A stretch of DNA of 64,000 bases, from NCBI GenBank assembly GCA_029448655.1, contig JACCLO010000007.1, forward strand, positions 2,108,001-2,172,000, in the 5' to 3' direction. Positions within the stretch are counted from its first letter, which is position 1, and each line of letters begins with the position of its first letter. Positions 12,121-59,544 of this stretch are shown piece by piece. The stretch comes from Wolfiporia cocos. Taxonomy: Eukaryota; Basidiomycota; Agaricomycetes; Polyporales; Phaeolaceae. The notes under the pieces are model-generated. The model did not search any database. It had not been told where the DNA came from and saw only the letters and a list, made by a program, of their open reading frames with translations. Both the position numbers and the translations under genes were made by a program.

Positions 12121-12131
12121 AGATTTGTTCT
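12121..12131 (-). promoter_or_regulatory. Element B: self-priming primer binding site
   Basis: On the minus strand AGAACAAATCT lies two bases (TT) inside the 5' LTR. It is the exact reverse complement of AGATTTGTTCT at 12266-12256 in the LTR, the presumed transcript start about 30 bp after the TATA box (TGTATATAAG, about 12300-12291). This is the Tf1-type arrangement in which the 5' end of the RNA primes its own reverse transcription. Confidence 0.8.
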
Positions 12132-12133
12132 AA

Positions 12134-12832
12134 TGACACAGACTAGACTGTGGGACTCACACTATAACCTTATAAGCGACTTGAAGAGGTTGCTGGAGGT
12201 TGGTGAGGAGACTAGTGGGCGCAAGCAGAGATGTTATGTAACTGTGCGAATGCAGAGAACAAATCTAAGGCTTATCCGCAGTGATAGCCCTACTTATATA
12301 CATGCATTGTTTGGTTACCAGTAAGGGAGCCAAACATGAAGACGGTCTGTGCGCAGACATAACTAATACAGCTAAGTCGTAAACTACAATAGACCATGTG
12401 CGCCGGTAATGGCCGCACCAGTAAGAGCGTTTGTTTGGACCGTAGGTCCATGTTGTGGAAGTGGCTGTAGCTACGTTAGTAAGCCATGCATGTGATTCTT
12501 ATATACCGGTATCGGAATATGAGTAATCGTAAGGTCATTGGCATGTGATAACGAGCGGGCCGCTTATCCAATTGTACTGACATAGCCCGGTATCGGGATA
12601 TGAGTAAGGCGCGTGACACCGGAGGTTAGTCCGCTGAGTCATTGACGCGTACAATCGTGTTATGTACGTGTTGTTATGACAAGTGGACGTATACCGCATT
12701 GTGTACGTGTTGTTTGGTTGCGTGTACGTGTAGACGGGCGCTTAGCAGCGTAAATGTCTACAAGGTCGTAGAAATACCAGATAAATAGGTAAAAATACGG
12801 GAAAAATAGTGGCATGTCCCAAATCTGTGACA
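12134..12832 (-). repeat. 5' LTR of element B (699 bp)
   Basis: In element orientation it starts TGTCACAG and ends CTGTGTCA. It holds a TATA box near 12300, the presumed start at 12266, and a strong 5' splice donor, GTGAGT, beginning at 12160, which would define a first exon of about 106 nt. It is nearly identical to the solo LTR at 41970-42628, apart from an extra segment of about 40 bp containing a repeated TACGTGTTGT motif. Confidence 0.9.
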
Positions 12833-13170
12833 CATTTAGTGTAGATGAGATACATTGTTTGAGTTCTACGATGTATCCTAATGTAGTCTATGGTTCGCGT
12901 TATATCCAAGTGTATCCGACACATCTGGATACATTTAAATACATTGGATTCTCACTGGGATTTATATCCCACAGGCAGTAGACTAAGTACATGTGTGGCA
13001 GCTAACGAGAGCCAAAGTGGTATGTAAGAGGTAGTTAGACAAGAGTAACATGGGAGTGGTGGTCATACGTGTGCGAGGTATTGTGACAAGAAGTGGAGTG
13101 TGATATATAATTAACAAGGTACAAACTGGGACAAGGTGCAGTGATTGCTGAAAATAACGATACCCCCAGC
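12833..13170. other. Flank of element B, nothing recognised
   Basis: AT-rich sequence with several TACATT/GATGTA-like words and no convincing ORF, RNA gene or terminal repeat. Confidence 0.5.
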
Positions 13171-13464
13171 ATGAGCCAAGAGGGTGAAGTTGTTATGTGT
13201 GTTAGCGATGTGGATGATCCAGGAAGCCCAAATTTGGCCGGGTCGAAGTTTCAGGTTAAGAAGGCAGGGGAAACGTGTGATCCGTAGAGGACGACCTTTG
13301 GATTTGAGGTATGCAAGGATGCCGAGTTGATCAATTTCTCTCCAGAATTCGCTGAGGAGCTCAGTAGAGGTGATGGGCGGAAGGTTAGGGCTTTTGTGAG
13401 GTCAAAGGGGGACAGAGTTGAGTTGAAGAATGTTGATGTGTTGGATATCACGTTGTATGGCAGG
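13171..13464 (+). pseudogene. Fragment of an unknown protein-coding gene
   Basis: From the ATG at 13171 one frame reads like protein for about 98 codons (GSKFQVKKAGETCDP, then FSPEFAEELSRGDGRKVRAF and SKGDRVELKNVDVLDITLYG), interrupted by one in-frame TAG near 13288. It ends exactly where an LTR-like end (TGTCACA) begins. I do not recognise the family. It may be a host or transposon gene remnant cut by the insertion. Confidence 0.35.
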
Positions 13465-13586
13465 TGTCACAATTCGACATGGCATTGCCCTTTCCCCGTC
13501 TTGAACCCATGAACTCAAGTCCAGAAGTCACCTTATTCCCCTCACCTTAGGACCTAGGCGGTGAGTCCCACAGCTAGTCTGTGTCA
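13465..13586 (+). repeat. Internally deleted LTR, 122 bp
   Basis: It starts TGTCACA and ends with the family U5 tail, GTGAGTCCCACAG to CTGTGTCA, but lacks the promoter region. The flanking bases do not form a TSD. Confidence 0.5.
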
Positions 13587-14345
13587 TGTCCTGTGGCTGA
13601 GAGAGTTAGCACATGCCAAACGTGTGCCAATGTGCCTTATCTCGACTGCATATAGTATTATGGTTTGATAGCATTGACACTGCTGGCCCTGTAGCACCTG
13701 TTTGGAATTCTTTTTTCTGTAGAAATTCAAGTAGTGATTTTCATATCTTAATATAGTGAGGTAATATAGAGCATCTAAAAATTTGAATCAATTTCCCAGA
13801 ACACATTTTCTCAATAGCTTGCTGTTTATGCTCTATGGGGATACAAATTGTTCATGTTGCAATGGTAACTTTATTAGGACTGCGTTCAGATCATGTGACC
13901 AGACATGTCACGCTTAACGTGTGCACCAGCCACACACCTGAAATTTCTGAGGCCTCTGTTATGACTGTTTGAACGGTCTGTAGTTTTTTATGCAATTAAA
14001 ATCAGCTCATAATCATTTCGAAAATCAGGCAAGCTGCTTACCACCCTATGGGCACCAGCAGCACAATGTAGACAAGCTCATACCGATGCAAAAGGATATC
14101 AAGCTGAAGACAGAGAAGATCAAGGCCCTCAGAAATGCTCTTACACACTTAGTGCACTAGAGAGCAAATGTGCAGGGATAATGGCACAAGCAGAGGTAGG
14201 ACTAGTGGAGACTCCAGTTGTTGATGGAGACCTGGGTAGAGATGACAATCAGTCTCATATAGCTTACTGATAGCTTTCTTGACATAACATTGCATGTATT
14301 TCACTCGGTGATGCTGCAATACCACTCTCTTGACAGACCATGAAC
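13587..14345. other. Nothing recognised
   Basis: AT-rich sequence without a convincing ORF, RNA gene or terminal repeat on either strand. Confidence 0.5.
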
Positions 14346-14775
14346 CAGGGTTGGCAGGGTCAAGGTTTGACCCCTTTCTCTTGACCCCTGGTCAAATCGC
14401 TTGACCCAGGTCAACACATGAATCTCATGTATATTGTGCCCACCATCTTAGCAATGTAGCTTCATGCTTAGACATTACATAATGGCCATTTTGTCCAATT
14501 GAGCATGAACCTACATGCTTTTGAGTCACAGTTGTCAGAGCTTGCATTCTACAGATCAATCTCACAGCACACACTACTAATAGCGTGACTTCTTGTCAAC
14601 TGCTGTACGAATCCAATATGGCTCTTGATGCACACAGGCAGCATCCAATCACAGCCATCTTAGTAGGTCATGCACAAGTCACGCCTTGACCCATTGACCC
14701 CCATTGACCTTTGACCCCTGGTCAAGGGTTGACCCAGGTTTGACCTGGTCAACCTGGGTCAATGCCAATGACCCA
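14346..14775. mobile_element. Short non-autonomous element with TTGACCC/GGGTCAA arrays at both ends
   Basis: The left end reads CAGGGTTGGCAGGGTCAAGG, followed by repeats of TTGACCC. The right end carries the same words inverted, GGTCAACCTGGGTCAATGCC, about 430 bp away. hAT elements often begin CAGGGTTG and have arrays of short subterminal repeats. I cannot see a clear 8-bp TSD, so the exact ends and the superfamily are uncertain. Confidence 0.45.
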
Positions 14776-14953
14776 GGAATCCGGCCTGAGGTCGGCATCT
14801 CATACTGAGGGTGCACATTTGGCCTGGGTCACCACATCAGACTAGCATGCATAGTCACAGCAGTAGAGGTTAAGGATAGAAGAGGGACACACCCCAATGG
14901 TACATTGATAAGTCTGAGGAGTACGCCTCAGACTTTAGTACATGCAATGTCGT

Positions 14954-15661
14954 TGTTACGGGTTGAATACCCGTTCGTATATTTGAGTTGTGAATATAGA
15001 TCATTCTTCTGCACGTAGGCACGTCGCTGTATGCAAGGCAAATACTCGTTAGATGCCTTCAAGTCCTAGGTGAAGTTCCTAGGAGATCATGTAATATCCA
15101 ATATGCGTTAGAGGATATAATCTGTTCGGGTGTGAGTCTAATAGAGTGTAAGACTCGCCTAAGTCTGAGAAGTCAGCGTGCACTTTGAGGACTTAGTCGT
15201 TTGGTTGCTTGAGCGAGAAATACTGAGCGTAGTTTCCTACGTTTGAGAACGAGTATCAGACTTCTTGTTTGTACAACAAGTTTGAGCTGAAGAGCCTCGA
15301 CAGTAAGTACATGAGTTTATATACTACACTGGGTTTTAGGGGTCAAGTCAGTCCCAGATGTCACCGATACTATCTATGCTATAGTACCAAACATTTGATA
15401 AGTATGGAGTGATATATCCGAGATGATAGATAGGAATGATGGCAGCTGAACGCCATCTATCAGCTAGTAAACAATGAACATGAAATGGGAGCAGAGTTGG
15501 ATCTGCCAAAGGTGGAATGTGCCCTATACACTAGTACAACTGGGGGTGTGCCCAGTAGAGTCACGAGTAGCCAGGGGGGTTGGTTGTGCAACAAGTCCCT
15601 GTATCGTATTCACCCAATGGTGAGTTCTGCCAGTGTTCGAAAAATCGAAATAACCGTAACA
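14954..15661 (-). repeat. Solo LTR, family A, 708 bp
   Basis: The ends are TGTTACGG and CCGTAACA, flanked by the 5-bp TSD GTCGT (14949-14953 and 15662-15666). The orientation is opposite to the LTR of element A. Confidence 0.93.
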
Positions 15662-16101
15662 GTCGTGCACCACTACCTAAAAGACTACCCTAAAGCAGCA
15701 CCTACAACTACCACCCAGAACAGTCCTATGGAATGCTTACATAATATGCTACAATACTATATACCCTTGAGTACCCAGTGATAACCTAAGCTCCCTATGT
15801 TAAATGCTACAGGTCATGTGATCGCTGCACACTATACCTCATGTCGCAGAATTAACTGTGACAGCCAAACCTGCCATGAACAGCCTCTGACAGCGGCATG
15901 TCACGACATGTCAATGCCACTTAGCGTCTATCCAATCTCAAATGCATGGATTTGGCAGGAGCTGGAGCTTAACCTAATCAGTTTGTGGGACACATTTCGA
16001 ACCGAGGTTGCTGCTCCCCAACTGCCACGATTCTCCCCAGAATCACATCAGGGTGCATCTTGTACTCAAACCACCACCTTCAGATTAGATGCTCATCTAC
16101 C

Positions 16102-17915
16102 ATGACTCCCCCTGTCACAGATTTCCTAGGGCATACCCTATTTTTACCTAAATTTACCACCTTCCTACGGAGCTACACATAGTTATTAGGCATTTACTCA
16201 TAGATAACCACTAGGTTACCTACACTGAATCCCTTACACGTAGTTAGTACCCCTAACCTATGTACTTGAACCCCGTGCCTGACCTCGTACAGTCCCATGA
16301 CCACAAACCCGCGCCTACGTCTAGACACATGACTACGGCACATCCCAAATCCTCCTCAGCCATTGCCTTTAGCGTAACACATGACTGTGGAACCTCGCCT
16401 GGCAGCTACTGTCCTTAGACGCACGCTGACGCGGCCTCAACTGGCGCCTATACCAAGCACCTCCCATTGACGCAGGCAGACGCGGCCCTCCAGTAGGCGC
16501 ATGCTGATGCGTCCTCCGTAGCTGCCCGTATTGACATGGCTACGCGGCTCCCGCCGCACCCTGAATCACGCACCTGGCATTACCGCCAGCACACAGACCC
16601 CTCGGCTTTAGGGTAGGCCTAGCTACACTGTTGCCGATACCTGTATATAAACCGTAATCTTCTGAGTGTACTACCTCAGAACTAATCACCTCTTGACTCC
16701 TGCTGAATCATACATCGACCTAAGCACTCAACTACCTCGCTGCCCCTTAACATCTCTCGTCAACCCCTCAAGAAGTATAAGTGAGTAGTTTGTGTCACCC
16801 CCAACACACCGTCCCCACCACCAACCACCCTTCTCTGCTAATACTGTCCCTTCTATGCGCCCCCACAACACCACCGATGCCACTTTCGCATTCACCCTTT
16901 TGTTTAACCAAGCTCAGAGCATTTTCCATGCCCATAAAAGCCACTCCTCCACCCATTCGTTGCCTCTCTGGCACTCCCACATTCCATACCTCGTTGACAC
17001 CATCACCACAGGAGCTGACCTCCTCGCTGCCAACCCTGCAGCACTCATCCGCGTCCACCAGGATGCGACTCAACTTTGCCAACACCTCGACCATCTTTTG
17101 ACCTCACCTCAACCTCATGGCACAGCACCTATGGTGCCCCATCTTTTCCACCCAAACCCTTAGCCCAACCCATGTCTCACACAAGACCATCACACATCCC
17201 ACGAGTCAAGCCTTGTGTGACACACCCACTCTGCCATCCTTTACCACCGAAACCGGATTTCTCTACCAAGAAACCGGCCATGCCTCCACCAACTATGCCT
17301 CAACCTCCACCTCTCACCCCTGATGAGGAAACCAATTCCCAATGGGAAACGGCTCCCCCCACTCCCACCCAGGACCTTTACTGTGACCTTCCTGCTGACA
17401 AATGGCACACCGCCAACCACTCCGGGAAACATTCCCCCCACCCACCATCCCAATCTGCTTCCGCACCACCAACCCTGCGTTTTCCTACTCCAGTAGCACC
17501 TATGCCACCTCGGGTACCCACACCGCAACCAATGACACCCATCACAGCACCCACTCCAGTAAGGCTGCCTCCGCATATTGCCTCACCTAGACCCACTACA
17601 TCTCCACCACCAGACTCTACCACTCCAGAGATGACCACACCTCCACCTGCATCGCATCTCGATCCCACTGGATCCACCCACGAACACGTTGGTGATCTCA
17701 CCACCCTCACAAACTCTTTTGTACCTCCACACAAATGCGCCTCGAGCCCAGTTTACAAACCACACTTGCCAATCCATGCACAAGAAATCTTCTTTAACCA
17801 ACCCATGTTTGACACCCTTCACACCATCAGCACTCCACCCCCTGATCCCCACTCTGAACCAGTCACCCAACTCAACGAACCACACCCGGCCATCCCTGCT
17901 GTCACAAACCTGTGA
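16102..17915 (+). pseudogene. Proline-rich, possibly Gag-like gene split by a solo LTR
   Basis: The start codon (16102-16104) and one Thr codon lie before a solo LTR (16113-16797). Past the LTR and its TSD the frame continues as PPTHRPHHQPPF to 17163. Its helical-looking segment (FTLLFNQAQSIFHAH to ALIRVHQDATQLCQHLDHLL) could be a capsid-like region. A second frame, 17076-17915 (279 codons), overlaps and is Pro/Thr-rich (for example PQPMTPITAPTPVRLPPH). A frameshift or a spliced intron would be needed to join them. No zinc knuckle or enzyme motif is visible. It could be the gag of a lost retroelement or a low-complexity host protein. Confidence 0.4.
16113..16797 (+). repeat. Solo LTR, 685 bp, inserted two codons into an ORF
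   Basis: The ends are TGTCACAG and TTGTGTCA. The TSD is CCCCC on both sides (16108-16112, 16798-16802). There is a TATA box (TGTATATAAAC) near 16644 and a splice donor (AAGTGAGT) at the U5 end. Confidence 0.88.
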
Positions 17916-17967
17916 CCATCCTCCACCAATGCTCTGCCCATTCTATCTGCCCCAACCCCTGATAGTG

Positions 17968-20753: not shown

Positions 20754-21682
20754 TGTCACAGATTTATCTGGGGCTTACAGCATTTTTCCCTACGATTATA
20801 GCAATTTATCCGGGATTTATACGTCTAACTACAAGTTATCTATGGGTTAACTCCCATTGCCACCACGACAAGCTCTTTACTGGACTTATCAACCACATGA
20901 CCAGCTTACATAACGCTACGGTACCTTCCGGTCCAATAGCAACACTACAGCTACGTCATAGGTCTCGCCCGTTAGAGCAAGACCAGCCACATCATAAGAT
21001 CTTAGATCATAATGATAGGCCGAGCGCGGCACGCTCGCATAATAATGTCCACAACACCAAACATCGCCACCAAGCAATGTTCTATTGGGTCGGCCTCCTC
21101 GGCTTCCCACCGTCATAAGATCCTTGATCATAATGACACCTCAGGCGCGGCACGCCTTCGCATAATTATGTCAACACGACCATACAGCACTATATTAGCA
21201 ACAAGGCAATATCGTTGTTGGTCCGGCCTTATCGGCCATCAATACCCGGGCTGTGCCCGCGTTTATCACAGATAATAATAAACCTCCTCTCTTACTATTG
21301 GTGCGGCAATTACCGGCCCACACGGCCATTGTAGATAGGATCATAAACACATAGATAAGATAAGCTTCGCCCATTGGCAAAGCCGCATAACCCGGAAAGG
21401 TAATACTATACAGTATCACATGACCTCTCCGCATACATGTATTTAAGTAGGAGCCAAGCGCTCCATACTTCAGTTCTATTCTATCGTCGTTACCACGAAT
21501 GCCCACCTGCGGAGTACCATAGGTACTCCCAGTGGACTACCATTGGTAGTCCCAAGCTTCGTCTGGTTTGCGGCTGCGCTACTTCCACTAGCAACTGCTG
21601 CACTGGGTCCATCTTCCTCGTCTAGTCGCCCTAGTACCTCAGGATAGCGACTAGGTGAGTCCCACAGGATAGATCTGTGTCA
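20754..21682 (+). repeat. 5' LTR of element D with promoter and splice donor
   Basis: It starts TGTCACAG and ends CTGTGTCA. A TATA-like TATTTAAG lies near 21440. The presumed transcript start, AGTTCTATTCT, is at 21472-21482. A perfect splice donor, AG/GTGAGT, is at 21653-21660, giving a first exon of about 183 nt. Confidence 0.88.
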
Positions 21683-21684
21683 TA

Positions 21685-21695
21685 AGAATAGAACT
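21685..21695 (+). promoter_or_regulatory. Element D: self-priming primer binding site
   Basis: AGAATAGAACT lies two bases (TA) after the LTR and is the exact reverse complement of the presumed transcript start AGTTCTATTCT (21472-21482). Confidence 0.82.
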
Positions 21696-25212: not shown

Positions 25213-25268
25213 AGGATCCGCTAGCACAATGACAATACACTCAAGTAACAAGACTATCCATCCCCAAC

Positions 25269-25555: not shown

Positions 25556-26316
25556 TGTCACAGATTTATCTGGGGCTTACAGCATTTTTCCCTACGATTA
25601 TAGCAATTTATCCGGGATTTATACGTCTAACTACAAGTTATCTACGGGTTAACTCCCATTGCCACCACGACAAGCTCTTTACTGGACTTATCAACCACAT
25701 GACCAGCTTACATAACGCTACGGTACCTTCCGGTCCAATAGCAACACTACAGCTACGTCATAGGTCTCGCCCGTTAGAGCAAGACCAGCCACATCATAAG
25801 ATCTTAGATCATAATGATAGGCCGAGCGCGGCACGCTCGCATAATAATGTCCACAACACCAAACATCGCCACCAAGCAATGTTCTATTGGGTCGGCCTCC
25901 TCGGCTTCCCACCGTCATAAGATCCTTGATCATAATGACACCTCAGGCGCGGCACGCCTTCGCATAATTATGTCAACACGACCATACAGCACTATATTAG
26001 CAACAAGGCAATATCGTTGTTGGTCCGGCCTTATCGGCCATCAATACCCGGGCTGTGCCCGCGTTTATCACAGATAATAATAAACCTCCTCTCTTACTAT
26101 TGGTGCGGCAATTACCGGCCCACACGGCCATTGTAGATAGGATCATAAACACATAGATAAGATAAGCTTCGCCCATTGGCAAAGCCGCATAACCCGGAAA
26201 GGTAATACTATACAGTATCACATGACCTCTCCGCATACATGTATTTAAGTAGGAGCCAAGCGCTCCATACTTCAGTTCTATTCTATCGTCGTTACCACGA
26301 ATGCCCACCCGCGGAG

Positions 26317-26875
26317 TGACACAGACTTACGTCTGTGCTACCCCTGGACTCAGGGGGAACCATACACGCCGTTGAGCGAGCCTATAAGTCACCGTGCCAG
26401 CGCTGAACGCAGAGGCAACGTGGGGGTGACTAGTCCCCTTGTGTACGTCGAGGTAACAGAGGCGGCTCACAGACTAGCACGACGCGATACGGGCCCCGGG
26501 CCAGAGAGCATCACAGCGATAGTAAGAAAGGGGCTATGCCCAATTGTCGAGAATCTTAGGAATGGGGAGTAAGCCCACATTCCGTCGTAATATATACATG
26601 AGCGATGTGACTACTAGTACTGCCCTAAAGATGAGGCCTGTGCGCCGTATCTACTGGGTCATGTGCTAAGTGACGCTACATGTAACTACTGTGACCATAA
26701 CGTGAGTACCGGAGGCGCGCGCTACCCTACAGCGCTAACCTAACGACCAGGTGACCTGCAATAACTGGGAGTGACGCTGGAGGTGACTATGGAGTAGAGG
26801 CGCGGCGTACGCCTAGCGCCGCACATACAACCTATAGCGAGGGAGTCTAAATTAATAAAGGAATAATTTGTGACA
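26317..26875 (-). repeat. Element E: 3' LTR (559 bp)
   Basis: In element orientation it runs TGTCACAAAT to CTGTGTCA. It has the same sequence as 27665-28223 as far as I can compare. Confidence 0.9.
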
Positions 26876-26911
26876 TTACCCCCCCTCTCGAAAAACGTCG
26901 TCCCTGACGTT
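26876..26911 (-). promoter_or_regulatory. Element E: polypurine tract and hairpin
   Basis: On the minus strand AACGTC-AGGGAC-GACGTT (26911-26894) is followed by TTTTCGA, a run of G with one A, and TAA, which abuts the LTR. The loop AGGGAC is the same as in D and F. Confidence 0.8.
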
Positions 26912-27649
26912 CTACCTTGAATCCTACGACGCTCGCTACCTTGGTTGCTTGTTTAACACACGGCTCATGTGGTTCATGAGGAGCTTCCATGTGCACGGTC
27001 CGTCCGCCGGTGGTGGAGCGAAGTGAGCTAGCCTGCAGGAAGAATTGGGAGTTCCACTCATCCCGGATTCCTTACATCCCGCAACGTGAGTCGACGAGGC
27101 GTGTCAGCGGTGAGCGGGCCCATCGGAGTTGGGTAATGGCCAATCATTCCGCTCCTAGGACTGACGCCAACATGGCTACGCGTGGCCTACCGACCTCGGG
27201 GTATGTGGTTCGCTCGTTGGTATTCGATAGTCTGTCGTGGTGGATTGCCTTCTGACCTTAGTGATCGCCGGTGTGGGGTTGGGTACCCTTGCGGGACCCT
27301 TCGCATACCCACAGATCAAAGTTCTTGACGATAACCCCTGCCGCCCAGGGGTAAGTGGCCGGACTGCCCTAGACCTCCACGCGCACGCGCATTCCCTTTG
27401 CAGGGGTGACGGCGGCGGGTCCTCAAACGGGGCTTACGTCGGTCGACCCCTTCTATCTTGCGTTCGAAAGAGGGCGGACTTGCTTACTCACTCCCTACGG
27501 TCGCTTTGCCAGGTGTAGCATTTCGTGGGGGCTCGTAAAACTACGGACCGACGGCGCTTCTACCGTCGGCTGCCCCGCCATGCTGCCTTGGCGACCTGTA
27601 GGTGGAGAACCCTCGGCCCCAGCGCAGGTGGCGCCGGAGGGGAGGTAAG
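26912..27649 (-). ncRNA. Element E: structured internal RNA
   Basis: No gag or pol. It is colinear with the F internal region (59545-60298). A stem CCGACGG/CCGTCGG around loop TAGAAGCG (27569-27548) is matched in F by CCTCTGG/CCAGAGG around TAGAAGCA, three double compensatory changes in seven pairs. Plus-strand ORFs here are short and not shared with F in a protein-like way. Confidence 0.7.
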
Positions 27650-27651
27650 AT

Positions 27652-27662
27652 ATTCCTAAGAT
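27652..27662 (-). promoter_or_regulatory. Element E: self-priming primer binding site
   Basis: Minus-strand ATCTTAGGAAT lies two bases (TA) inside the 5' LTR. It is the exact reverse complement of ATTCCTAAGAT (27911-27901) in the LTR, about 30 bp downstream of a TATATATTA-type box. Confidence 0.82.
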
Positions 27663-27664
27663 TA

Positions 27665-28223
27665 TGACACAGACTTACGTCTGTGCTACCCCTGGACTCA
27701 GGGGGAACCATACACGCCGTTGAGCGAGCCTATAAGTCACCGTGCCAGCGCTGAACGCAGAGGCAACGTGGGGGTGACTAGTCCCCTTGTGTACGTCGAG
27801 GTAACAGAGGCGGCTCACAGACTAGCACGACGCGATACGGGCCCCGGGCCAGAGAGCATCACAGCGATAGTAAGAAAGGGGCTATGCCCAATTGTCGAGA
27901 ATCTTAGGAATGGGGAGTAAGCCCACATTCCGTCGTAATATATACATGAGCGATGTGACTACTAGTACTGCCCTAAAGATGAGGCCTGTGCGCCGTATCT
28001 ACTGGGTCATGTGCTAAGTGACGCTACATGTAACTACTGTGACCATAACGTGAGTACCGGAGGCGCGCGCTACCCTACAGCGCTAACCTAACGACCAGGT
28101 GACCTGCAATAACTGGGAGTGACGCTGGAGGTGACTATGGAGTAGAGGCGCGGCGTACGCCTAGCGCCGCACATACAACCTATAGCGAGGGAGTCTAAAT
28201 TAATAAAGGAATAATTTGTGACA
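27665..28223 (-). repeat. Element E: 5' LTR (559 bp)
   Basis: It contains the promoter, the presumed transcript start at 27911 and a GTAAGT splice donor (27678-27673) eight bases before the U5 end. Confidence 0.9.
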
Positions 28224-28396
28224 CGGAGTACCATAGGTACTCCCAGTGGACTACCATTGGTAGTCCCAAGCTTCGTCTGGTTTGCGGCTGCGCTACTTCC
28301 ACTAGCAACTGCTGCACTGGGTCCATCTTCCTCGTCTAGTCGCCCTAGTACCTCAGGATAGCGACTAGGTGAGTCCCACAGGATAGATCTGTGTCA

Positions 28397-30182: not shown

Positions 30183-30594
30183 CACACATGGACGCCACGT
30201 TTGCCGCGTGGCGTCCATGCACGTCGTTGATCCTCCTCCCATTAGATAGGGTGCCTGCCATCCGCGGGGTTGGCCGGTGGATTCCCATGCCCGGCGCCTG
30301 AAAGGCGCGCACGCTGCTAGCTCGCATTTTGCGCACTGTTCCTGCCCCGCACCACAGGGATTCGTGCTCCACGCCACGGGGATCCGTGCCCCACACCATG
30401 GGGATTCGTTCCCACACCACAGGGATTCGTGGCCCATTCCATGGGGGTTTGTGGCCCATGCCACAGGGATTTGCATCCTGTGGCATGGGGATTTTGTAAT
30501 GTAAATACCCCACACCACGGGGATTTGTGCCCCGTGCCACAGGGATTCGTATCCCAATGCCACAGGAATTTGTGCCCCATGCCACGGGGATTTG
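30183..30594. repeat. 22-23 bp minisatellite and adjacent repeat unit, left part
   Basis: From about 30341, degenerate tandem units resemble CCACGGGGATTTGTGCCCCATG. The array resumes at 32342-32540 on the far side of a solo LTR. The sequence before it (GTTGGCCGGTGGATTCCC, GCGCCTGAAAGGCGCGC) recurs at about 33600-33645, so this is part of a larger dispersed repeat. Confidence 0.75.
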
Positions 30595-32341
30595 TGACAC
30601 AGTATACCTGTGGGACTCACCAAGGCCTATATTCTTGAGTAATAAGGCGACTTGGAGAGGAGGTAACTAGCGCAGCAGGGTGGTGAGAGTTATTCTACGG
30701 CGCAAGCCGAGAATAATAGAACTAAGGATTAGCGGCGTCAAGCCGGGTCCTTATATACATGTGTGACGGGAGGGCACGTGCTACTATATAGCTATGGCCT
30801 TACCGGGTTATGTGGCTTTGCCAAGTGGCGAAGCTTATCTTATCTACTTTGTATGGACTCTACATAGAATGGCCGTGGTTGGCCCTAATGGCCGAACCAA
30901 TCGTATGAGAGGGATTATGTGCTTATCTGGTTAGTAACGCGGGCACTGCCCGGGTATAAGGGAAGCCGGTTGCCGGATACTGTGAGGTATAATGGCTATT
31001 GGCCGTGCTTTGTTGGATGACCAAGGCGAGACGCCGAGGTCGTTATGCTATTGGACATGGTTGTACCGTAGCATGTGATATGTCCGGACCGGATGGTAAC
31101 CGGGACATGTGTTGGTCTTAGCCGTGAGGCGAGGACCGGTGTTTGGGCGACGCCGTGATGGCAGAAGCCCGGGACTTGGAGAACGCCGAGTCCGTGGGAG
31201 GCCGAGGAGGCCGTGTGTTACGGGTCGAATACCCGTTCGTATATTCGAGTCGCGAATATGGATCGTTCTTCTGCACGTAGGCTTTGTTGCCGTATGCAAG
31301 GCAAATACTCGTTAGATGCCTTCAGGTCCTAAGTGAAGTCCTTAGGAGATCGGTTAATATCCAATGCGCGTTAGAGGATATAATCTGTTCAGGTGCGAGT
31401 CGAATAGAATATAAGACTCGCCTAAGTCCGAGAAGTCAGTGTGCACTTCGAGGACTTAGTCGTTCGGTTGCTCGAGTGAGAAATACTGAGCGTAGTTTCC
31501 TACGTTTGAGAACGAGTATAAGACTTCTTGTTTATACAACAAGGTCGAGCTGAAGAGCCTTGACAGTAGGTACATTAGTTTATATACTACATTGGGTTTC
31601 AGGGGTCAAGTCCGTCCCAGATGTCACCGATACTATCTACGCTATGGTATCAAACGTTTGATAGGTATGTAGTGATTTTCCTGAGACGATAGATAGGAAT
31701 GATGGCGGTTGAACGCCATCTATCAGCTAATAAACGATGAACATGAAACGGTGGCAGAGTTGGATCTGCCAAAGGTGAAACGTGCCCTATAGACTAGTAC
31801 AACTGGGGATGCGCCCAGTAGAGTCAAGAGTAGCCAGGGGAGTTGGTTGCGCAACAAGTCCCTGTATCGTATTTGCCCAGTGGTGAGTTCTGTCGATATT
31901 CAAAAAATCAAAATAACCGTAACACCGTGACCTATAGCAATATTGCCGTGATGCTAATATTATGCTGTATGGTCGTGTTGACATTATTATGCGAGCGTGC
32001 CACGCTCGGCCTGTCATTGTGATCTAGGATCTTATGACGTGGCAGGTCTAGCTCTGACGGGCGAGACCGAGTGACGTAGCTATGACGATTGCTATTGTCT
32101 AGACGTATATGACGTATTGCGGATATCGGACCGTAAGGTTATCGGTGATAGTGCGATGATATCATTAGTCTTGTGACGTAGCGTTACGTAAGCTGGTCAG
32201 GTGGTTGATAAGCCCAGTTAAGAGCTTGTCATATGGCAATGGGAGTTAACCCGTAGATAACTGGTAGTTAGACGTATAAATCCCGGATAAATTGCTATAA
32301 TCATAGGAAAAATGCTGTAAGCCCCAGATAAATCTGTGACA
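30595..32341 (-). repeat. Solo D-family LTR, interrupted by a family A solo LTR
   Basis: The ends are TGACACAG and CTGTGACA, with TSD ATTTG (30590-30594, 32342-32346). Without the insert it is about 1,033 bp. It carries GTGAGTCCCACAG at the U5 end. It sits in the middle of the minisatellite. Confidence 0.9.
31216..31924 (-). repeat. Solo LTR, family A, 709 bp
   Basis: The ends are TGTTACGG and CCGTAACA, with TSD CCGTG (31211-31215, 31925-31929). It is nested in the D-family solo LTR. Confidence 0.93.
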
Positions 32342-32346
32342 ATTTG

Positions 32347-32695
32347 TGCTCTGTGCCATGGAGATTTGCGCCCCGTGCCACGGGGATTTGTGTCCTGTGG
32401 CATGGGGATTTTGTGATGTAAATACCCCACACCACAGGGATTTGTGCCCTGTGCCATGGGGATTTGTGCTCTGTGCCACGGGGATTTATGCCTCATGCCA
32501 TGGGGATTTATGCCTCATGCCACGGGGATTTTTGTAACATAAATTGCCTGTGCTGTAGATGCCTGCCAAAAGATTGCAAAAAATGAAGAACATTTTGACA
32601 CCACATTACACAGTATTACAAGCGAAGCGACAATGAGACCGAGGATCAGCGAGGTGTCAGAAGTGGCTGAGCAGGCAGAGACAAGTGTCACAGTT
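32347..32695. repeat. Minisatellite, right part, and repeat-unit tail
   Basis: Units of the GGGATTTGTGCC type run to about 32540. The tail (AAGCGAAGCGACAA, GATCAGCGAGGTG, AAGTGGCTGAGC) recurs at 33799-33855 and marks one end of the dispersed repeat. Confidence 0.7.
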
Positions 32696-38456: not shown

Positions 38457-39681
38457 TGTTACGGGTCGAATACCTGTTCGTATATCCGAGTCGTGAATAT
38501 AGATCATTCTTCTGCATGTAGTCCTACGGACGAGTGCAAGGCAAATATATCTGTGAAATGCCTTCAGGCCTTAAGTCAAAGATCCTAGGGTTCGTTCAAT
38601 ATCCAATACGCGTTAGAGGATATAATCTGTCTGGTTCACAAGTCTGATAGAATATAAGACTTGCCTAAGTCCGAGAAGTCAGTGTGCACTTTTAGGACTT
38701 AGTCGTTCAAGAGCTCAGGAAATACTGAGTGTAGTTTCCTACATTTGAGAACGAGTATAAGACTTCTTGTTTGTACAACAAGGTCGAGCTGAGGAGCCTC
38801 GACAATAAACACATGAGTTAATATACTACGTTGGGTTTCAGAGGTCAAGTCTGTCCCAGATGTCACCGATACTATCTGTGCTATTGACGCAAACTCACTA
38901 TATGATCTTCTGGTGTGGCTTCGGTATGAAGGCTTTGGCTTGAAGTCGAGAGCGAGGTGCAGTCAGAGTGTAAAGCTTAGACGGCGTGGTATGCAATTGA
39001 AAGTTCTAAGGTTGTAACGCCTTAGAACGTCGGTATATATACATGTAGGGCACTACTCAAGAACTGTCTGCCCTAATGTTACGTGGTCTGTGCGCTGAGC
39101 GGTAAGACTCAGCGTCTACGGTATGGTGCCATGATGGCGTGATATGTTCTAGCGTAAGCTAGATGTGATAAGCGGACTAAAGGCCGTAGAGCGTTAACGC
39201 GGGGCCGATGACCGATTAGTTATGACTATGTAATCCAGACTCTGACGTAGGATCTACAGGTCACGTGCCATTCTGTGGTTAGGTGTACTAACGTAGTTAG
39301 ATAGGACTTGTCGTTAGATAAGTCCTAGAAAATGCGCAGAAAATCTGGGAAAATTAGGATAATTCCTAGAAAATCTGTGACAGCTATAGTATGAAACGTT
39401 TGATAAGTATGTAGTGATATATCCGAGATGATAGATAGAAATGATAGACAGGAATGATGATGGCGGTTGAACGCCATCTATCAGCTAATAAATGATAAAC
39501 ATGAAGCGAGGGCAGAGTTGGATCTGCCAGAGTCGAAACACACCCTATACGCTAGTACAACTGGGGTTGTGCCCAGTACAGTCACAAGTAGCCAGGGGGT
39601 TGGTTGCACAACAAGTCCCTGTATCGTATTCACCCAATTGTGAGTTCTGCCAGCATTTGGAAAATCAAAATAACCGTAACA
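38457..39681 (-). repeat. Solo LTR, family A, interrupted by a 498-bp LTR
   Basis: The ends are TGTTACGG and CCGTAACA. The flanks CTCAC and GTCAC agree at four of five positions. Without the insert and its duplicated 5 bp it is 722 bp. Confidence 0.85.
38885..39382 (-). repeat. Solo LTR, 498 bp, nested
   Basis: The ends are TGACGCAA and CTGTGACA, with TSD GCTAT (38880-38884, 39383-39387). The minus strand has a TATA box near 39045 and a GTGAGT donor near the U5 end. Confidence 0.88.
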
Positions 39682-40041
39682 GTCACTTAGGACTCAGACT
39701 AGTTCACCTCCCAACCACTGTCATATAGTCCTTAAAACTTTTGACCAATAACACTTGCTTCATTGCTTGATAACCTCTATTGCTCACCCCTCAGCACTCA
39801 AGCTCGAACAACAGTAAGTCTTGAAGTGCCCCCCACTCATCTTGAACCCCTGTACTTATGTTCAGAGATCACCTGACTTGTTTAGTATCAATGTGTTACC
39901 ATTAGACTACCTAGCTATAATGGTCACCTGACATGTATCATGTAAGCTGTTTAGAGTTTAGCTTAGCGCTTTGGTAGGTATGTGCACACAGGCCATGTTG
40001 CTTTAGGGTAGCCTTGATAGAAATGCTTGCTTGCATGTATA

Positions 40042-46538: not shown

Positions 46539-46546
46539 GCCCTCCG

Positions 46547-52439: not shown

Positions 52440-53209
52440 TATGATCAATTATCTTGTGAGTCAAGTCTGCTACTGTTATGGGTCGAATACCCGTTCGTAT
52501 ATTCGAGCCGCGAATATAGATCGTTCTTCTGCACGTAGGCTTGTTGCCGTGTGCAAGGCAAATACTCGTTAGATGCCTTCAGATCCTAGGTGGAGTCCTT
52601 AGGAGATCGGTTAATATCCAATACGCGTTAGAAGATATAATCTGTTCAAGTGCGAGTCTGATAGAATATAAGACTTGCCTAAGTCCGAGAAGTCAGTGTG
52701 CACTTTGAGGACTTAGTCGTTCAATTGCTCGAGCGGGAAATACTGAGCGTAGTTTCCTACGTTTGAGAACGAGTATAAGACTTCTTGTTTGTACAACAAG
52801 GTCGAGCTGAAGAGCCTCGACAATAAGTACATGAGCTTTTTATACTACGCTAGGTTTTAAGGGTCAAGTCCATTCCAGATGTCACCGCTACTATCTACGC
52901 TATAGTACCAAACGTTTGATAGGTATGGACTGATATATCTGAGACGATAGATAGGAATGGAGATGGCGGTTGAACGCCATCTATCAGCTAATAAATGATA
53001 AACGTGAAACGAGGGCAGAGTTGGATCTGCCAAAGGTGAAACGTGCCCTATACGTTAATACAACTGGGGATGCGCCCAGTACGAGTCACGAGTAGCCAGG
53101 GGGTTGGTTGTGCAACAAGTCCCTGTATCGTATTCACCCAATGGTGAGTTCTGTCAGCGTTCGAAAAATTCGAAATATCCGTAACAGCTACAGATTTGTC
53201 ATGGCATAC
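52440..53209 (-). other. Transposase intron that contains a solo LTR
   Basis: The minus-strand donor is GTATGC at 53209 and the acceptor CATAG ends at 52440. Removing the LTR and one TSD copy leaves 52 nt. Joining the exons gives GEMFVNQ followed by LKTKIIPTFEELHGPGF, which reads through smoothly. Confidence 0.7.
52474..53186 (-). repeat. Solo LTR, family A, 713 bp, inside an intron
   Basis: The ends are TGTTATGG and CCGTAACA, with TSD GCTAC (52469-52473, 53187-53191). Confidence 0.92.
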
Positions 53210-53653: not shown

Positions 53654-54102
53654 TGTCACAGATTTATCCTTATTTTTAGCTATTTTCCCCGCTTTTATAC
53701 TTCAATATCTATGTTGTAGCATAGAACCATGTATCCTTGACAATCACGTGACCTAGTGCTTAGAACTTACCGGAACCTTCTAGCAGGTTCCACATACCAG
53801 AATCACATGCGCGATGATTCAGCCTGTGACTGCTGATTCATCGCTAGTCATACATACTTAGTCACTCTCAGTAGATCACATGTAGCTTTACTCATCCTAG
53901 GTACCGTAGGTCCTAGTAGTATTAGGGGTCTTGCGACACATGTATATATACTGGAACAGCCTGAGCGTAACACCTCAGTTCTGTTCTCCTGATATTGAGC
54001 TACTAGCCTAACAAGCTATCTCTTCGCCTCTACTCTCTACTCTGTTACCCTCTAAGATGCCCCAGCAAGCAATTAGTGAGTATTGAGTCTTGGTTTATGT
54101 CA
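53654..54102 (+). repeat. Solo LTR, 449 bp, in transposase exon
   Basis: It runs TGTCACAG to TTATGTCA, with TSD GCAGT (53649-53653, 54103-54107). It has TATA (CATGTATATATAC) near 53945 and AGTGAGTATTGAG at the U5 end. Confidence 0.9.
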
Positions 54103-54821
54103 GCAGTGCTCAGGGAGGTTCCTCGGCCAACCTTCAAGTGAATCCGCAGGAAGAGTACAAGCTCCATATACTTCTTTAACCCTGCTGGCATCTCCTTACG
54201 AATGATCTCTTTCAGATACTGCTGAGCAACTGCTGGTACCATGCTGTTTTTGGTGAATTCGGTGAGTTTTTCGGGATTCATGGCCCATTTGTTTGACCAC
54301 ACGTATGAGTGTAGCTCTGCTTGCACCACAGGGTCCTGTATAGGACTTGATATGCCGGCCCTTCAAGGATATGAGAAGTTCTCGCACATTCAACCATCTT
54401 CGAGCCCACTTCCGCACCATCCTTCCACCCCATTTTGCAGAAAAGCCATGACTTTTCACTGCACATTCCCCTGCCACGGTCATGGAGTGCTTGTATTTGA
54501 CAATCAGGTGCAGATAGCTCTCAATACAGCGCATGCGGCAGGCCTGCAGACTGTTATCGCCTGAAATAGAGGTATGTCACTTTGATTTAATGAATTTCTG
54601 GATCACATAAAGTCCATTCTCGAAGGTCCGCATACGGTTCTCCTTGATGTGAGAGCGGGTAATGCGTGCTGGCACTTCAAGCTTGCGGCGCTTTGGAGGG
54701 GGGGTTGTCCGGTTGGAGCGGACAGTGCGCTGCTGCTGTGAGGGGCTGGAATCCGCAGTAAGTCCGGCCTCGTCCATTTCACTCTCTTCCTCCTCCTCAT
54801 GCATGAGTAACTGTAGCATCG

Positions 54822-55914
54822 TGACACAGATGGCTCTGTGGGACTCACCAAGCCAGTATCCTGCAATGAACTAGGCGACTTAGGTGAGGAAGAGGTTATC
54901 AGACGCAGCAGGAGGTAGGAGGTTCTTCTACGGCGTACGCCGAGAAGAATAGAACTGAGGTTATAGGCCGTCAAGGCCCTACTTATACACAAATATAACG
55001 GGTCATGTGCTACTGTATAGTGCATGCCCGATAAGGAGTGTGGGCTTGGTTGCCATAAGGGCGACCAAGTGGTACGACTACTCTACAAAGGCCGTGACCC
55101 GCCGGTAATGGCCAAGCCAATGGTAAAAGAGAGAGCGTGTGGTCTCATCGTTGGATGGACATGTGAATACGGGCGCAGCCCGGGTATGAGGGATGCCGGT
55201 TGCCGGATACCGTGAGGTATAATGGCGATTGGCCGGTCATCGGGTGCTGACCAAGGCGAGACGCCGAGGTCGTAATGCTATTGGGCCGGCAGGCACCGTT
55301 AGCATGTGATATGTCCGGACCGGAAGGTTACCGGAACATATGGTGGTCTTAGCCGTGAGGCGAGGACCGGTGTTTGGGCAACGCCGTGATGGCAGAAGCC
55401 CGGGACTTGGAGACCGCCGAGTCCGTGGGATGGCCGAGAAGGCCGAGCCTATAGCGATATTGCCTTGGTGCTAATATAGTGCTATTTGGCCGTGTTGCCA
55501 TTATTATGCGAAGGCGTGGCGCGCCTGAGGTGCCATTATGATCAAGGATCTTATGGCGGTGAGAAGCCGGGAGGGCCGACCCAATAGTACAAGGCCATGA
55601 GGCACTGTTTGTACATGTGGACATTATTATGCGAGCGTGCCGCGCTCGGCCTATCATTATGATCTACGATCTATGACGTGGCTGGTCTTGCTCTGACGGG
55701 CGAGACCTGTATGACGTAGCTGTAACTATGCTATTGGACCGGAAGGTGCCGTAGCATTATGTAAGCTGGTCATGTGGTGATAAGCCCAGTTAAGAGCTTG
55801 TCGTGGTGGCAATGGGAGTTAACCCGTAGATAACTTGTAGTTAGACGTATAAATCCCAGGTAAATTGCTATAATCGTAGGAAAAATGCTGTAAGCCCCAG
55901 ATAAATCTGTGACA
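54822..55914 (-). repeat. Solo D-family LTR, 1,093 bp, in transposase exon
   Basis: The ends are TGACACAG and CTGTGACA, with TSD CATCG (54817-54821, 55915-55919). It carries GTGAGTCCCACAG at the U5 end. Confidence 0.92.
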
Positions 55915-56775
55915 CATCGCACTTTGATGCTCCTGGCTATTGTGGATGTTCTCTTCACTTCCTTCTCCACCTTCGGCACCCACATCTCCGGTTTCGTACT
56001 CACCCTCTGATGATGAGATATCAGAGAGATATCCACAGAAAATCTCGTCTCCACTCAGTGCTGGCTGGTGAACACTTGGAATGGTATGTAAACCACCCTG
56101 TTGCTCATTCGACTGCTGTTCTGACAGCTCAGGACCCTTCTGTGTCGAGAAAAACGAGTGCATGAATTGCGCACCAGAGCTGTGCCCAAAACTCGTCAAC
56201 ACATACATTTCACCCATGAATTGTGATAAGTACCTCTTACGGTGAGCCAGTTCATCCTGAAGCTTCTTATCGTGCCTCCGTTTCGTTCTGTCTGACATGC
56301 CATTGTAACCCAGAGCCCGGTTGCTCTCTGCTTGCTTCCAGACGCTCTGAGACATTGGCCTCATTAGGATACCGAAGGCATCCCTGTTGTGTTCTTTCCT
56401 CTGCTGTGCCATCTCCAGACTCTGACGCAGCTCATCACCCTCCAACTCAGACAAATCGTTGTTGTTGTTGTCATCATCTCCGTCATCATCTCCATTGTTG
56501 CCCTCATCATCATTTAAGTCCTCTCTATCTTCATCCTTGTCCGAGGAGATCATGTAACTCACACCCCCCATCCATGATGTGCGCTCGTTATCCTCATCTG
56601 TGCTTATGCAGAGAACATCTTGCGCAGCTGATACTTGGGCTTGTGATGTGCGTGACTGCTTCCTGGCACTGGCATGTGTGCGCAACTGCTTCCCAGTACA
56701 TGCATGAGCAGCAGCAGCTTTGTGTGCTTTCTGTATCTTACTAGAGTGCGGCATGTAGTGAAATAGTATATACAC

Positions 56776-58035
56776 AACAGGCCTGCGCCGTTGCTGTATC
56801 TACACCACAACAAGCATTCAAATTTTCTCTCCATGCTGTACTATACCCAAAATGTTCAATCTCAGGGCGCCGCCAGGTACCAGCGCTTATATAAACCCTG
56901 TGTTAGGGTTAACGCGAAGTTGCCCACAGGATTTGGCCACTGTACAAAAGAGGTGGTGACTAGGCCATTGGCACCATAGCACCATTGGTATTGGCAGTCG
57001 CGGTTGCATGTGATCTATCAAAGCAGAAGCAATAGCAACTTATCAACATGCCATGTTACATGAATTTCATTGAGATGTCTCGCGTCGAAGACATTTATCA
57101 GATAGGTGCGTACAGCACACAATACCATGACCATGTGCAGCGAGTCACTCATATCAGCATCTGTCAGGAAGCATTGTGCCGAGATTGATTCCCAGTAAAA
57201 GTACCCCGTATCAGGGCCTATCAGAAGATAACGGGTACAATCTGATACAAAACCGAACGGTTGATAGCTCCGGATATGATTTTAAGCGCCCGGCATCCTA
57301 GCAGTAGCTACCATACAATACCCAATGCTATCAGAGAAGGATTTGATATGTAGCATTTATACTTCATTATACATAAGTTTTTTCCAGCATACTGAGAGCT
57401 ACTGCAAAATACCAGAGGGCCTTGTCCTCCTACTCAAAATTATCAGATTATACTCATACCTAGAGGCCTTTGCTCTTCATTCAATCAGAACATATCAATA
57501 CATTTCAAAGTCTAATCGCTAAGCTGCTGAAATCTATCAAAGGCTACTAGAACATACCCTGAACATTTCGATGCAGGTTTTGTAATATACCGAATCCTCC
57601 CACAGTGCCATGTGTGCAGACCCACAGACTCAACAAGAATACCAAGTTCCTTGCAAAACAATGCATGTGGCACTGCTGGAATTAGTGAACAATCTACAGA
57701 CACAGTATGATTTGCACACATACCCACAACATTTTCATGGCATGTAGCCAGGATGCACTGCGCATTGCATTTCCAGGCACCACAAATGTTGTGTTCAAAT
57801 TTGAACCTATTGACAGAGAATCCATACATGCACCTTGTTCCTTGTGGAACTGCGCATGTGGCGTCGCTGTCTCCAGAATGTGATTGGTGCCACTGTAGCA
57901 GTGTGTGCTCATGCACAAACTGCCATGGAATAAGCTAGTATTAAGGTGGAAAATGTTGGAAGTCGATGCACTCAGTGCATGATGGTGTAATCAGAATCAC
58001 ACATTGATTGGAGTCAATAGTACTAGTGCACCAAG
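56776..58035. other. Nothing recognised
   Basis: AT-rich flank with small motif-free ORFs (the longest is 134 codons, minus, 57512-57916). No repeat ends are seen until element F. Confidence 0.5.
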
Positions 58036-58521
58036 TGTCACGGATGTGCCCAGGGGGCCACTGTACTTCCCTCGCTATAGGTTCCACATGCGGCGCTAGG
58101 CGTACACCGCGTCTCTGGTCCTCAGCCACCTCCTGTGCGTCTCTTTAGTTTGTTGGTCACCTGACTGTTAGGTTAGCGCTGTAGGGTAGCGCGTGCCTCA
58201 GGTATCTCACGTTATGGTCACACTAGTTACATTCGTTACTGTAGTTACACATCATGTGCTCTCTTAGATAATGCGCGCACAGGCCATTACTTTAGGGCGG
58301 CCATTACTGGCCAGCTACACATGTATAAGTACGACGGATGAGGACTTACATCCTCATCCTTGAGATTCTCGTCAATGCACTAAAGTGCCTCTCTTATCAC
58401 TTCCCTGCGCGTGCTCTGGCCCGAGGGCCCCTCTTGTCTTGCTCGACTGTGTGGTGCCTCACTACGTCGCCTCTAGGAGTCCTTAGGTGGGGTTCGCCTT
58501 TGGTACAGCCGACAAGGTCAC

Positions 58522-58775
58522 TGTCACAGATAATGCGAAAGCATAATATCATAGACGTTACGGAGCAATAACTAGGGTACATTACCCGTACGTGGCGCTG
58601 GCATACATGGCCTACACCATAGAGTGTCTAATAGGCGCCGAGCGTGGGAATATGAACTGCAGATATAGCTGGACCCTCGATAGCAGCATGAGCTGTTATC
58701 GTAGCCCTTTTGGGGGAGTGGCTATTATGCCACTCATAAGCACGTTGCATTGGGTCCGCAGCGCGTCTTGTGATA
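58522..58775 (+). repeat. Element G: 5' LTR (254 bp)
   Basis: It contains a weak TATA-like ATATAG near 58670 and the presumed start GAGCTGTTAT (58690-58699). Unlike the longer LTRs, no clear splice donor is seen. Confidence 0.88.
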
Positions 58776-58777
58776 TA

Positions 58778-58787
58778 ATAACAGCTC
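58778..58787 (+). promoter_or_regulatory. Element G: self-priming primer binding site
   Basis: ATAACAGCTC lies two bases (TA) after the LTR and is the exact reverse complement of GAGCTGTTAT (58690-58699). Confidence 0.75.
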
Positions 58788-59151
58788 ACCCGGTCGCCGG
58801 TTCGAACCTGGGTGGTGGCAAATATTTCCACTGCCTGGGGCGCTTCCGAACCACTGGCGGCTGAGGGAAAAGTACCCACCACGTGACCCCCTGTATCATG
58901 GGGCCCCTCTATAACCGTAAGGTATCAGGGGATAAGATTGGTCAAAGCTTGCGTGGTAAAAACTACTATTAAATAGCCTTAACCCGCACCCAAAATCCAG
59001 GGTGTAAGTCGGGCCTTCAAGAGGTTGGCACACACGTCATAAGCCAAATGGTATAAGGGATTGGGGGTACCCTTCACCAGGCACAATGACAAAGCATAGT
59101 AGAAGTGATACTTAGTACCGGGGGCGGCTTGATGCAGCCTAAGTTATCTCC

Positions 59152-59187
59152 TTAACCAGAGACGGTTAATCCTTGAAGTGGGGGTAA
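59152..59187 (+). promoter_or_regulatory. Element G: hairpin plus polypurine tract
   Basis: TTAACC-AGAGAC-GGTTAA (59152-59169) is followed by GAAGTGGGGG and TAA, then the LTR. Confidence 0.8.
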
Positions 59188-59441
59188 TGTCACAGATAAT
59201 GCGAAAGCATAATATCATAGACGTTACGGAGCAATAACTAGGGTACATTACCCGTACGTGGCGCTGGCATACATGGCCTACACCATAGAGTGTCTAATAG
59301 GCGCCGAGCGTGGGAATATGAACTGCAGATATAGCTGGACCCTCGATAGCAGCATGAGCTGTTATCGTAGCCCTTTTGGGGGAGTGGCTATTATGCCACT
59401 CATAAGCACGTTGCATTGGGTCCGCAGCGCGTCTTGTGATA
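59188..59441 (+). repeat. Element G: 3' LTR (254 bp)
   Basis: Same length and, by eye, same sequence as the 5' LTR. Confidence 0.88.
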
Positions 59442-59533
59442 GTCACCGCTGGCGCGGCGTCGCACACGTCTTGTAGGGCGTTAGGGAGTCCCCCTGATGC
59501 CAGGGTCGCACAGACGGGTAAGTCTGTGACATA

Positions 59534-59544
59534 ATCTCAAGGAT
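59534..59544 (+). promoter_or_regulatory. Element F: self-priming primer binding site
   Basis: ATCTCAAGGAT lies two bases (TA) after the LTR and is the exact reverse complement of ATCCTTGAGAT in both LTRs (58356-58366 and 60655-60665). Confidence 0.82.

Follow-up and report, generated by a model that had tools for sequence, protein, structure and literature searches.

How an element that encodes no protein primes its reverse transcription is the question raised by a 64,000-nucleotide (nt) stretch of the basidiomycete Wolfiporia cocos (GenBank assembly GCA_029448655.1, contig JACCLO010000007.1, positions 2,108,001 to 2,172,000 of the forward strand; hereafter the window), in which five long terminal repeat (LTR) elements, B, D, E, F and G, were examined. 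In 5/5 of these, the word placed 2 nt past the 5' LTR has a perfect reverse complement inside that LTR (Table 1). We consider it very probable that all five are self-primed LTR retroelements of the Tf1/sushi design. The initial annotation had proposed this layout, and it is supported by the position of the words, their perfect pairing, their covariation among genomic relatives and the geometry of the TATA box and putative transcript start.

The LTR limits were obtained by self-comparison of the window and the junctions were read from the sequence. All five 5' LTRs start with TGTCAC and end in TGTGTCA (B, D and E), TGTGACA (F) or TGTGATA (G); the spacer between the LTR and the primer-binding site is TT in B and TA in the other four, and a G-rich tract ending in GTAA before the 3' LTR is common to all. 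The five words and their reverse complements lie exactly where they had been annotated. The pairing is indeed perfect throughout, while the length earlier given for it, 10-11 nt, needs correction: exact matches extend over 12 nt in E and F, where the count includes the spacer A, and over 11 nt in the other three, which for G is one base more than annotated. The TATA-like box annotated about 30 bp before the LTR word in four of the five elements is present in B, D, E and F, with its first T at -32 to -34 from the word; G lacks a good TATA box, offering just a weak TATAG at about -26. The predicted start step is C-A or T-A in B, D, E and F (C-A in 48/48 E/F copies) and T-G in G. In Tf1, the RNA pairs with the site through its first 11 bases, and RNase H cleaves it after base 11 (PMC7175516). 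A comparable route is supported here, since a TATA box 32-34 nt upstream is combined with a pyrimidine-A start step in B, D and E/F. Within the window, the two LTRs of each of D, E, F and G share 98.9-100% identity in the individual aligned pieces, and these insertions accordingly look young; 5-bp target duplications accompany E and G.

Table 1. Features of the self-complementary elements in the window (positions counted from its first letter).
Element	Feature	Position	Strand	Remarks
B	5' LTR, 699 bp, TGTCAC...TGTGTCA	12134..12832	-	self-comparison, junction reading
B	primer word AGATTTGTTCT, predicted RNA 5' end at 12266	12256..12266	-	TATATAAG begins 34 nt upstream
B	primer-binding site AGAACAAATCT	12121..12131	-	2 nt past LTR
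B	pol open reading frame: protease, reverse transcriptase, RNase H, integrase	4488..8144	-	3' end overlaps another LTR
B	607-aa open reading frame in gag position	8086..9909	-	no Pfam match
D	5' LTR, 929 bp	20754..21682	+	
D	primer word AGTTCTATTCT	21472..21482	+	
D	primer-binding site AGAATAGAACT	21685..21695	+	
D	3' LTR	25556..28396	+	interrupted by nested E: 25556-26316 + 28224-28396
E	whole element, 1.9 kb, non-coding	26317..28223	-	target duplication CTCCG
E	5' LTR	27665-28223	- (reverse complement)	
E	primer word ATTCCTAAGAT	27901..27911	-	
E	primer-binding site ATCTTAGGAAT	27652..27662	-	
F	whole element, about 1.95 kb excluding nested G, non-coding	58036..60905	+	
F	5' LTR	58036-58521 + 59442-59531	+	interrupted by nested G
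F	TATA box TATAAG	58324..58329	+	-32 from primer word
F	predicted U3 hairpin left arm GGATGAGGA	58336..58344	+	pairs with TCCTC|ATCC (58351-58359)
F	primer word ATCCTTGAGAT	58356..58366	+	3' LTR copy at 60655-60665
F	second-helix 5' strand GTCA	58371..58374	+	pairs with TGAC at 59527-59530
F	primer-binding site ATCTCAAGGAT	59534..59544	+	
G	whole element, 920 bp, LTRs 254 bp	58522..59441	+	inside F 5' LTR; target duplication GTCAC
G	5' LTR	58522-58775	+	
G	predicted U3 hairpin left arm CGATAGCAGC	58678..58687	+	pairs with GCTGTTATCG (58692-58701)
G	primer word GAGCTGTTAT	58690..58699	+	
G	primer-binding site ATAACAGCTC(A)	58778..58787	+	
G	B-box-like GGTTCGAACC, 110 nt after predicted start	58799..58808	+	Pol III promoter motif

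Chance as the origin of these matches was rejected by positional and cross-family controls. When 250 starts after each LTR were scanned, only the register of the primer site held an 11-mer with a reverse complement in the LTR (at offset 2 in all five, and in E and F at offset 1 as well). The first 10 nt of each word fitted their own LTR in 5/5 cases and a foreign LTR in 0/20, which bears out the annotated contrast of differing sequence with unchanging pairing. Simple arithmetic gives an 11-mer at a fixed offset a chance of about 0.6-2 in 10,000 per element of matching within an LTR of 254-929 bp, so that the five matches together lie far beyond chance. The genome searched for relatives comprises 64.4 Mb in 76 contigs, and the stretches fetched from it bear L-numbers. 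The window and L001-L088 were also scanned de novo for CA, two free bases and an 11-mer with its reverse complement upstream (20,562 sites). This returned 42 matches, whereas the controls gave 11 with the word reversed and 54 with the word in the same sense. Of the 42, 23 are primer words preceded by a TGTGTCA or TGTGACA end, and the remaining 19 are not of this kind. Among 13 word pairs, each start word binds its own site best in 13/13 rows and 12/13 columns of the table of all combinations, with a mean of -13.0 kcal/mol for own pairs versus -3.3 for swaps and 0/20,000 permutations reaching the observed sum. These pairs were preselected as exact matches, and hence the table shows only that the words are not interchangeable; the shuffling, moreover, ignores relatedness.

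The evidence for covariation comes chiefly from the relatives of E and F. A pattern built from their LTR end and the sequence past the site, with 10 positions in or beside the site left open, had 253 genome matches versus 1 for its reversed control, and nine words occupy the site among the first 100 listed of these. In 48 of the 56 fetched stretches that fit it, the exact reverse complement lies within 750 nt upstream. As for the rest, L039 is the window's F, whose word is farther away (exact at -1178) owing to the nested G; the first matched site of L042 and L062 is too near the stretch edge, with the second site exact in both; the LTR body of L077, L081 and L103 is rearranged or foreign, including inverted pieces and sister-family LTRs; and L079 and the B relative L097 have one mismatch each. 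For the pair count, L039, L077, L081, L097 and L103 were removed manually, the long stretches L109-L112 and L126 were also omitted, and the best match up to 700 nt upstream was taken; copies with more than two mismatches were to be dropped, though none was. Across the resulting 51 copies, 560/561 pairs of the primer helix are Watson-Crick, none is G-U and one is a mismatch. The eight intact start words found in matched pairs are connected by at least 10 changes at 5 of the 11 positions; the copies are related and so not independent, and the independent events are few. Every changed word present in several fetched copies with intact LTRs has its matching partner, in keeping with the coevolution of start word and primer site that had been annotated from the window.

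Similar behavior is seen in other families. Relatives of D were found at 185 sites (2 for the control), with two words among the first 100 listed, and 8 of the 11 D-like or odd-site stretches fetched are exact; these include a subfamily in which ATAATAGAACT pairs with AGTTCTATTAT (3/3 fetched) and another in which TTGATAGTTCT pairs with AGAACTATCAA (1/1 fetched). Relatives of G were found at 116 sites (again 2 for the control), with two main words among the matches listed. The first type matches over 11 nt in 30/30 fetched copies; in the second, a C-to-T change in the site is accompanied by a G-to-A change in the start word in 12/12 fetched, leaving 10 matched nt instead of 11. Since many G copies lie on short contigs at repeating positions, they are not independent. 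Family B is nearly uniform, its site being identical in 97 of the first 100 listed of 193 found, and its start word in all of the first 100 listed of 781, in which copies with intact flanks come first.

Predicted folds of the window RNAs, taken from the start word to past the site, give the primer duplex a mean pair probability of 0.88-0.98. In E/F a second helix joins four bases shortly past the start word to four at the LTR end. Its 51 copies take the forms GTCA:TGAC (33), GACA:TGTC (14), GACG:TGTC (3) and GGCA:TGTC (1), amounting to 200 Watson-Crick pairs, 4 G-U pairs and no mismatch out of 204, versus at most 116 Watson-Crick pairs when the partner is slid by 1-3 bases. This helix covaries as well: with each of four different start words, the T:A and the A:T form of its variable pair are both found.

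If the five elements are indeed of the Tf1/sushi design, the RNA would begin at the LTR word, its first 10-11 nt would fold back onto the primer-binding site 2 nt past the LTR, and RNase H would cut the duplex so that the freed 5' end primes minus-strand synthesis. The non-coding elements would obtain RNase H in trans, probably from chromoviruses like B, with which they share LTR ends and the polypurine tract. As its primer would be part of the element itself, a non-coding element would need neither a host tRNA nor the word of its helper. In LTR elements generally, the primer serves as template during plus-strand synthesis, and its sequence thereby becomes that of the new site. A self-primer would likewise be transferred to the primer-binding site of the newly made DNA; a changed word in the 3' LTR would be present in both LTRs after one cycle and in the site after a second. 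Perfect pairing could thus be kept while the words drift, because a change in the start word would enter the site within about two cycles; such copying would account for the perfect match, the free drift and the missing G-U pairs with no need for double mutants to be selected.

Could the match instead be maintained by ordinary compensatory selection on an RNA helix? The second helix speaks for this: it is copied by no known step and yet covaries, so that selection on the leader structure seems to act here. On the other hand, selection tolerates G-U pairs, which make up 0/561 of the primer helix versus 4/204 of the second helix, a comparison that draws on few independent events. Further, the Tf1 self primer is reportedly not removed (so the title of Atwood-Moore et al. 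2006), as copying would need. With these points in view, we regard selection as an unlikely keeper of the match. Far less probable is the idea that the word is a DNA or promoter repeat, such as a transcription-factor site with an inverted copy, and no primer. It can point to a further hairpin-forming inverted repeat between the TATA box and the word, but it does not account for the fixed place 2 nt past the LTR, the free difference in sequence between families or the partner at the expected RNA 5' end. Primer sites for tRNA 3' ends start with TGG. None of the primer sites found here does so, and the words differ between close relatives with the LTR word changing along; hence, even though some fungal LTR elements are reported to use internal tRNA parts (PMC10886601), priming by tRNA with self-complementarity as a by-product of LTR sequence or chance is scarcely credible.

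Several observations count against self-priming by copied words. The start site is a prediction from the start dinucleotide and its distance to the TATA box. That the primer helix is free of G-U pairs favors copying over selection, but this comes from related copies, which are not independent and whose eight E/F words are connected by at least 10 changes. A control with scrambled sites, itself a weaker one, equaled or exceeded the real fold in 1/40 cases for each of B, D, E and F and in 0/40 for G. The second helix was not seen in B, D or G, and the third 'pretzel' duplex known from Tf1 did not emerge from the nine copies tried, in which the best complementary runs vary from copy to copy, so that we claim none. 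No matching target duplication was found at the junctions of D and F in the window. Among the D-like or odd-site stretches, L095 has no partner word and L099 combines an insertion in the site with a change in the word; two further stretches with a different site, L100 and L101, have no self-complement. L122, a G relative, has 10 matched nt with a mismatch at the 11th base; in three B site variants (L086-L088) the start word is the normal one, which leaves each with one mismatch, and the single mismatches of L079 and L097 are likewise one-sided. The initial annotation had named independent mutation of site and start word as the finding that would tell against it: one-sided changes do occur in L079, L086-L088, L097, L099 and L122, each in one fetched copy.

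An RNA with the word at both ends would have to choose between them, and a second structure bears on this. Predicted folds of B, D, E/F and G place a hairpin between the TATA box and the start word, in the unique 3' (U3) part of the LTR. The right half of the E/F hairpin enters the start word by 4-5 nt, and the left half varies with the word (GGATG, GAGATG, AAGATG and GGAATG). Over the first five bases, mean pairing is 0.94 with the own word versus 0.78 with swapped words (0/2000 permutations), with the caveat that the words are alike and at least one other word pairs equally well in 11/21 rows. The 10-bp hairpin of G covers 8/10 word bases; in B and D the main stem ends at the word, into which weaker predicted pairs extend by 6 nt (B) and 3 nt (D). 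The left arm of F starts 12 nt past the first T of the TATA box and precedes the word; thus, if transcription starts at the word, the RNA would carry the arm only at its 3' end. In that position the arm could keep the 3' copy of the word from pairing with the site, and it could equally serve 3' end formation. In L059 and L108 the U3 arm fits its own word no better than those of sister families, which suggests recombination between LTRs.

We tentatively join these elements into one proposal, to which we give somewhat less than even chances: the word pairs would act as a self-inheriting key, private to each non-coding parasite, with the U3 arm masking the 3' word in E/F and G. The start word would pass to the primer site in each cycle and the pair would drift as a unit without compensatory selection, while the keys of the non-coding parasites would be constrained by neither tRNAs nor the helper. 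In E/F and G the arm would leave the 5' copy of the word alone to prime, and in E/F it would change with the word as a third member of the set.

The elements had been described as miniature and protein-less. This holds for E, F and G, which are small and non-coding, and fails for B, a chromovirus of about 9.2 kb; D, at about 5.7 kb, is not miniature, and no pol domain was found in it. E and F have LTRs of 559-576 bp and internal regions of about 0.8 kb, as compared to 0.4 kb in G. No stop-free frame in E, F or G exceeds 100 aa, and G has none of 80 aa or more. Among 30 F-like sites with room downstream (L039-L068), the 3' LTR starts 708-807 nt past the site in 30/30, and no stop-free frame longer than 176 aa is seen in the 1600 nt after the site; L033, too short downstream, is outside this count. 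With two short LTRs, a primer site, a polypurine tract and no open reading frame within 0.92 kb, G resembles the terminal-repeat retrotransposons in miniature (TRIMs), defined by a length under 1 kb and LTRs of 100-250 bp (254 bp in G). E and F follow the same plan but are too large, so that by the strict size definition only G among the three would count as a TRIM. The TRIM primer site is described as tRNA-complementary (PMC6934838), unlike the self-complementary one found here.

A further feature of G may concern its transcription. Its GGTTCGAACC and TGGGGGAGTGG (+22) resemble the B and A boxes, respectively, of RNA polymerase III (Pol III) promoters, with one deviation from the A-box consensus. 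Since the window contains the motif GGTTCGANNC 7 times, counting both strands, we treat the boxes as a lead only, and G is possibly Pol III-transcribed; if so, it would be a Pol III-transcribed, self-primed miniature element. It shares its small TRIM form, the B-box-like motif and the near A box with the Pol III-promoter TRIMs Helenus and TRIMp3. Helenus carries a tRNA-like sequence in the LTR, which its author describes as lacking complementarity to the site (PMC10886601), whereas G has an internal B box and a self-complementary site. A pair of tRNA-like A and B boxes inside the LTR was not found in G, the B box at 58799 lying outside it, and a tRNA within G was dismissed, as ARAGORN and Rfam found none in the window. 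G also recurs at a spacing of about 8.6 kb, at repeated positions, on many short contigs (e.g. C24, C60 and C68; L126). Ribosomal DNA was rejected as the home of these arrays, with no rRNA in 8 flanking stretches or in one unit, which holds two open reading frames of more than 200 aa; the array may be subtelomeric or another tandem array.

The window's B is the 5' part of a high-copy, protein-coding chromovirus of about 9.2 kb. This assignment follows from the pol frame downstream of its primer site and from L109, the 3' part of another copy, which encodes reverse transcriptase, RNase H, integrase, SH3_Tf2-1, chromodomain and dUTPase domains. In L109:37-3615, Pol terminates in the dUTPase domain, after the chromodomain. 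The B word has 1259 genome matches (19 when reversed as a control), which often come in pairs 135 bp apart and recur at about 9.2-9.3 kb. A 400-bp segment of pol has 40 scored genome copies with 98-100% identity; comparison of coordinates places 14 of these, one of them the window's, 5.7-6.9 kb downstream of a same-strand B primer site among those listed. The best protein-search match of B has 96% identity. Self-comparison found no B 3' LTR in the window, and two other open reading frames after the window's B (607 and 307 aa) were without match in a Pfam scan. Among the five families, a gypsy-type pol with a chromodomain was found in B only. D has an internal region of 3.9 kb with a longest stop-free frame of 213 aa, and Pfam scanning of its 208-aa open reading frame and of a 192-aa frame from a D-like relative returned no match.

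Self-priming by Tf1/sushi elements is already well known. The fission-yeast chromoviruses Tf1, Tf2, Tj1, Tosmo1-3 and Tcry1 share with the present elements a self-primer at the RNA 5' end (the first 11 bases in Tf1), a site downstream of a CA-ended 5' LTR and a chromodomain, here in family B (PMC10085805, PMC7175516, PMC4600332); Tf1 relatives further have an extra duplex beside the primer duplex, comparable to the second helix of E/F (PMC10085805). Those systems differ in that here small non-coding elements are also involved, many different words coexist in one genome, of the two extra pretzel duplexes a single one was detected, and that in E/F alone, and B adds a dUTPase. PosPlaTy3 families of Postia placenta and other dUTPase fungal chromoviruses resemble B, with the dUTPase at the Pol C-terminus as in PosPlaTy3-4 (PMC2864245). 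In plants, self-priming is predicted for the Tcn1 and TAR lineages (PMC6317226). The self-priming papers found describe protein-coding elements, and a literature search met no description of self-primed miniature elements, an absence that is unproven as subscription papers were mostly outside the search. New here are the self-primed small non-coding families and the U3 hairpin that fits the primer word. The genome holds hundreds of copies with 14 different matched word pairs so far, most of these pairs in non-coding elements of about 1-2 kb. These copies make it testable whether a self-primer is copied back into the genome in each cycle, and how an RNA with the word at both ends picks the 5' copy; they also suggest how a parasite of a parasite can escape host tRNAs.

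Other repeats lie nearby. Beside F, at 60855-63918, chromovirus pol fragments are followed by a 93-bp piece 91% like the F LTR end and devoid of a primer site. A separate LTR family of about 710 bp, starting TGTTACGGGT, is present in five copies, one of them split (3876-4589, 14951-15662, 31216-31924, 38457-39682 and 52473-53187); its ends gave no self-primer match among the de novo scan matches listed. Finally, arrays of a 22-bp unit (like ATTTGTGCCCTGTGCCACGGGG) occupy 30338-30570 and 32320-32553.

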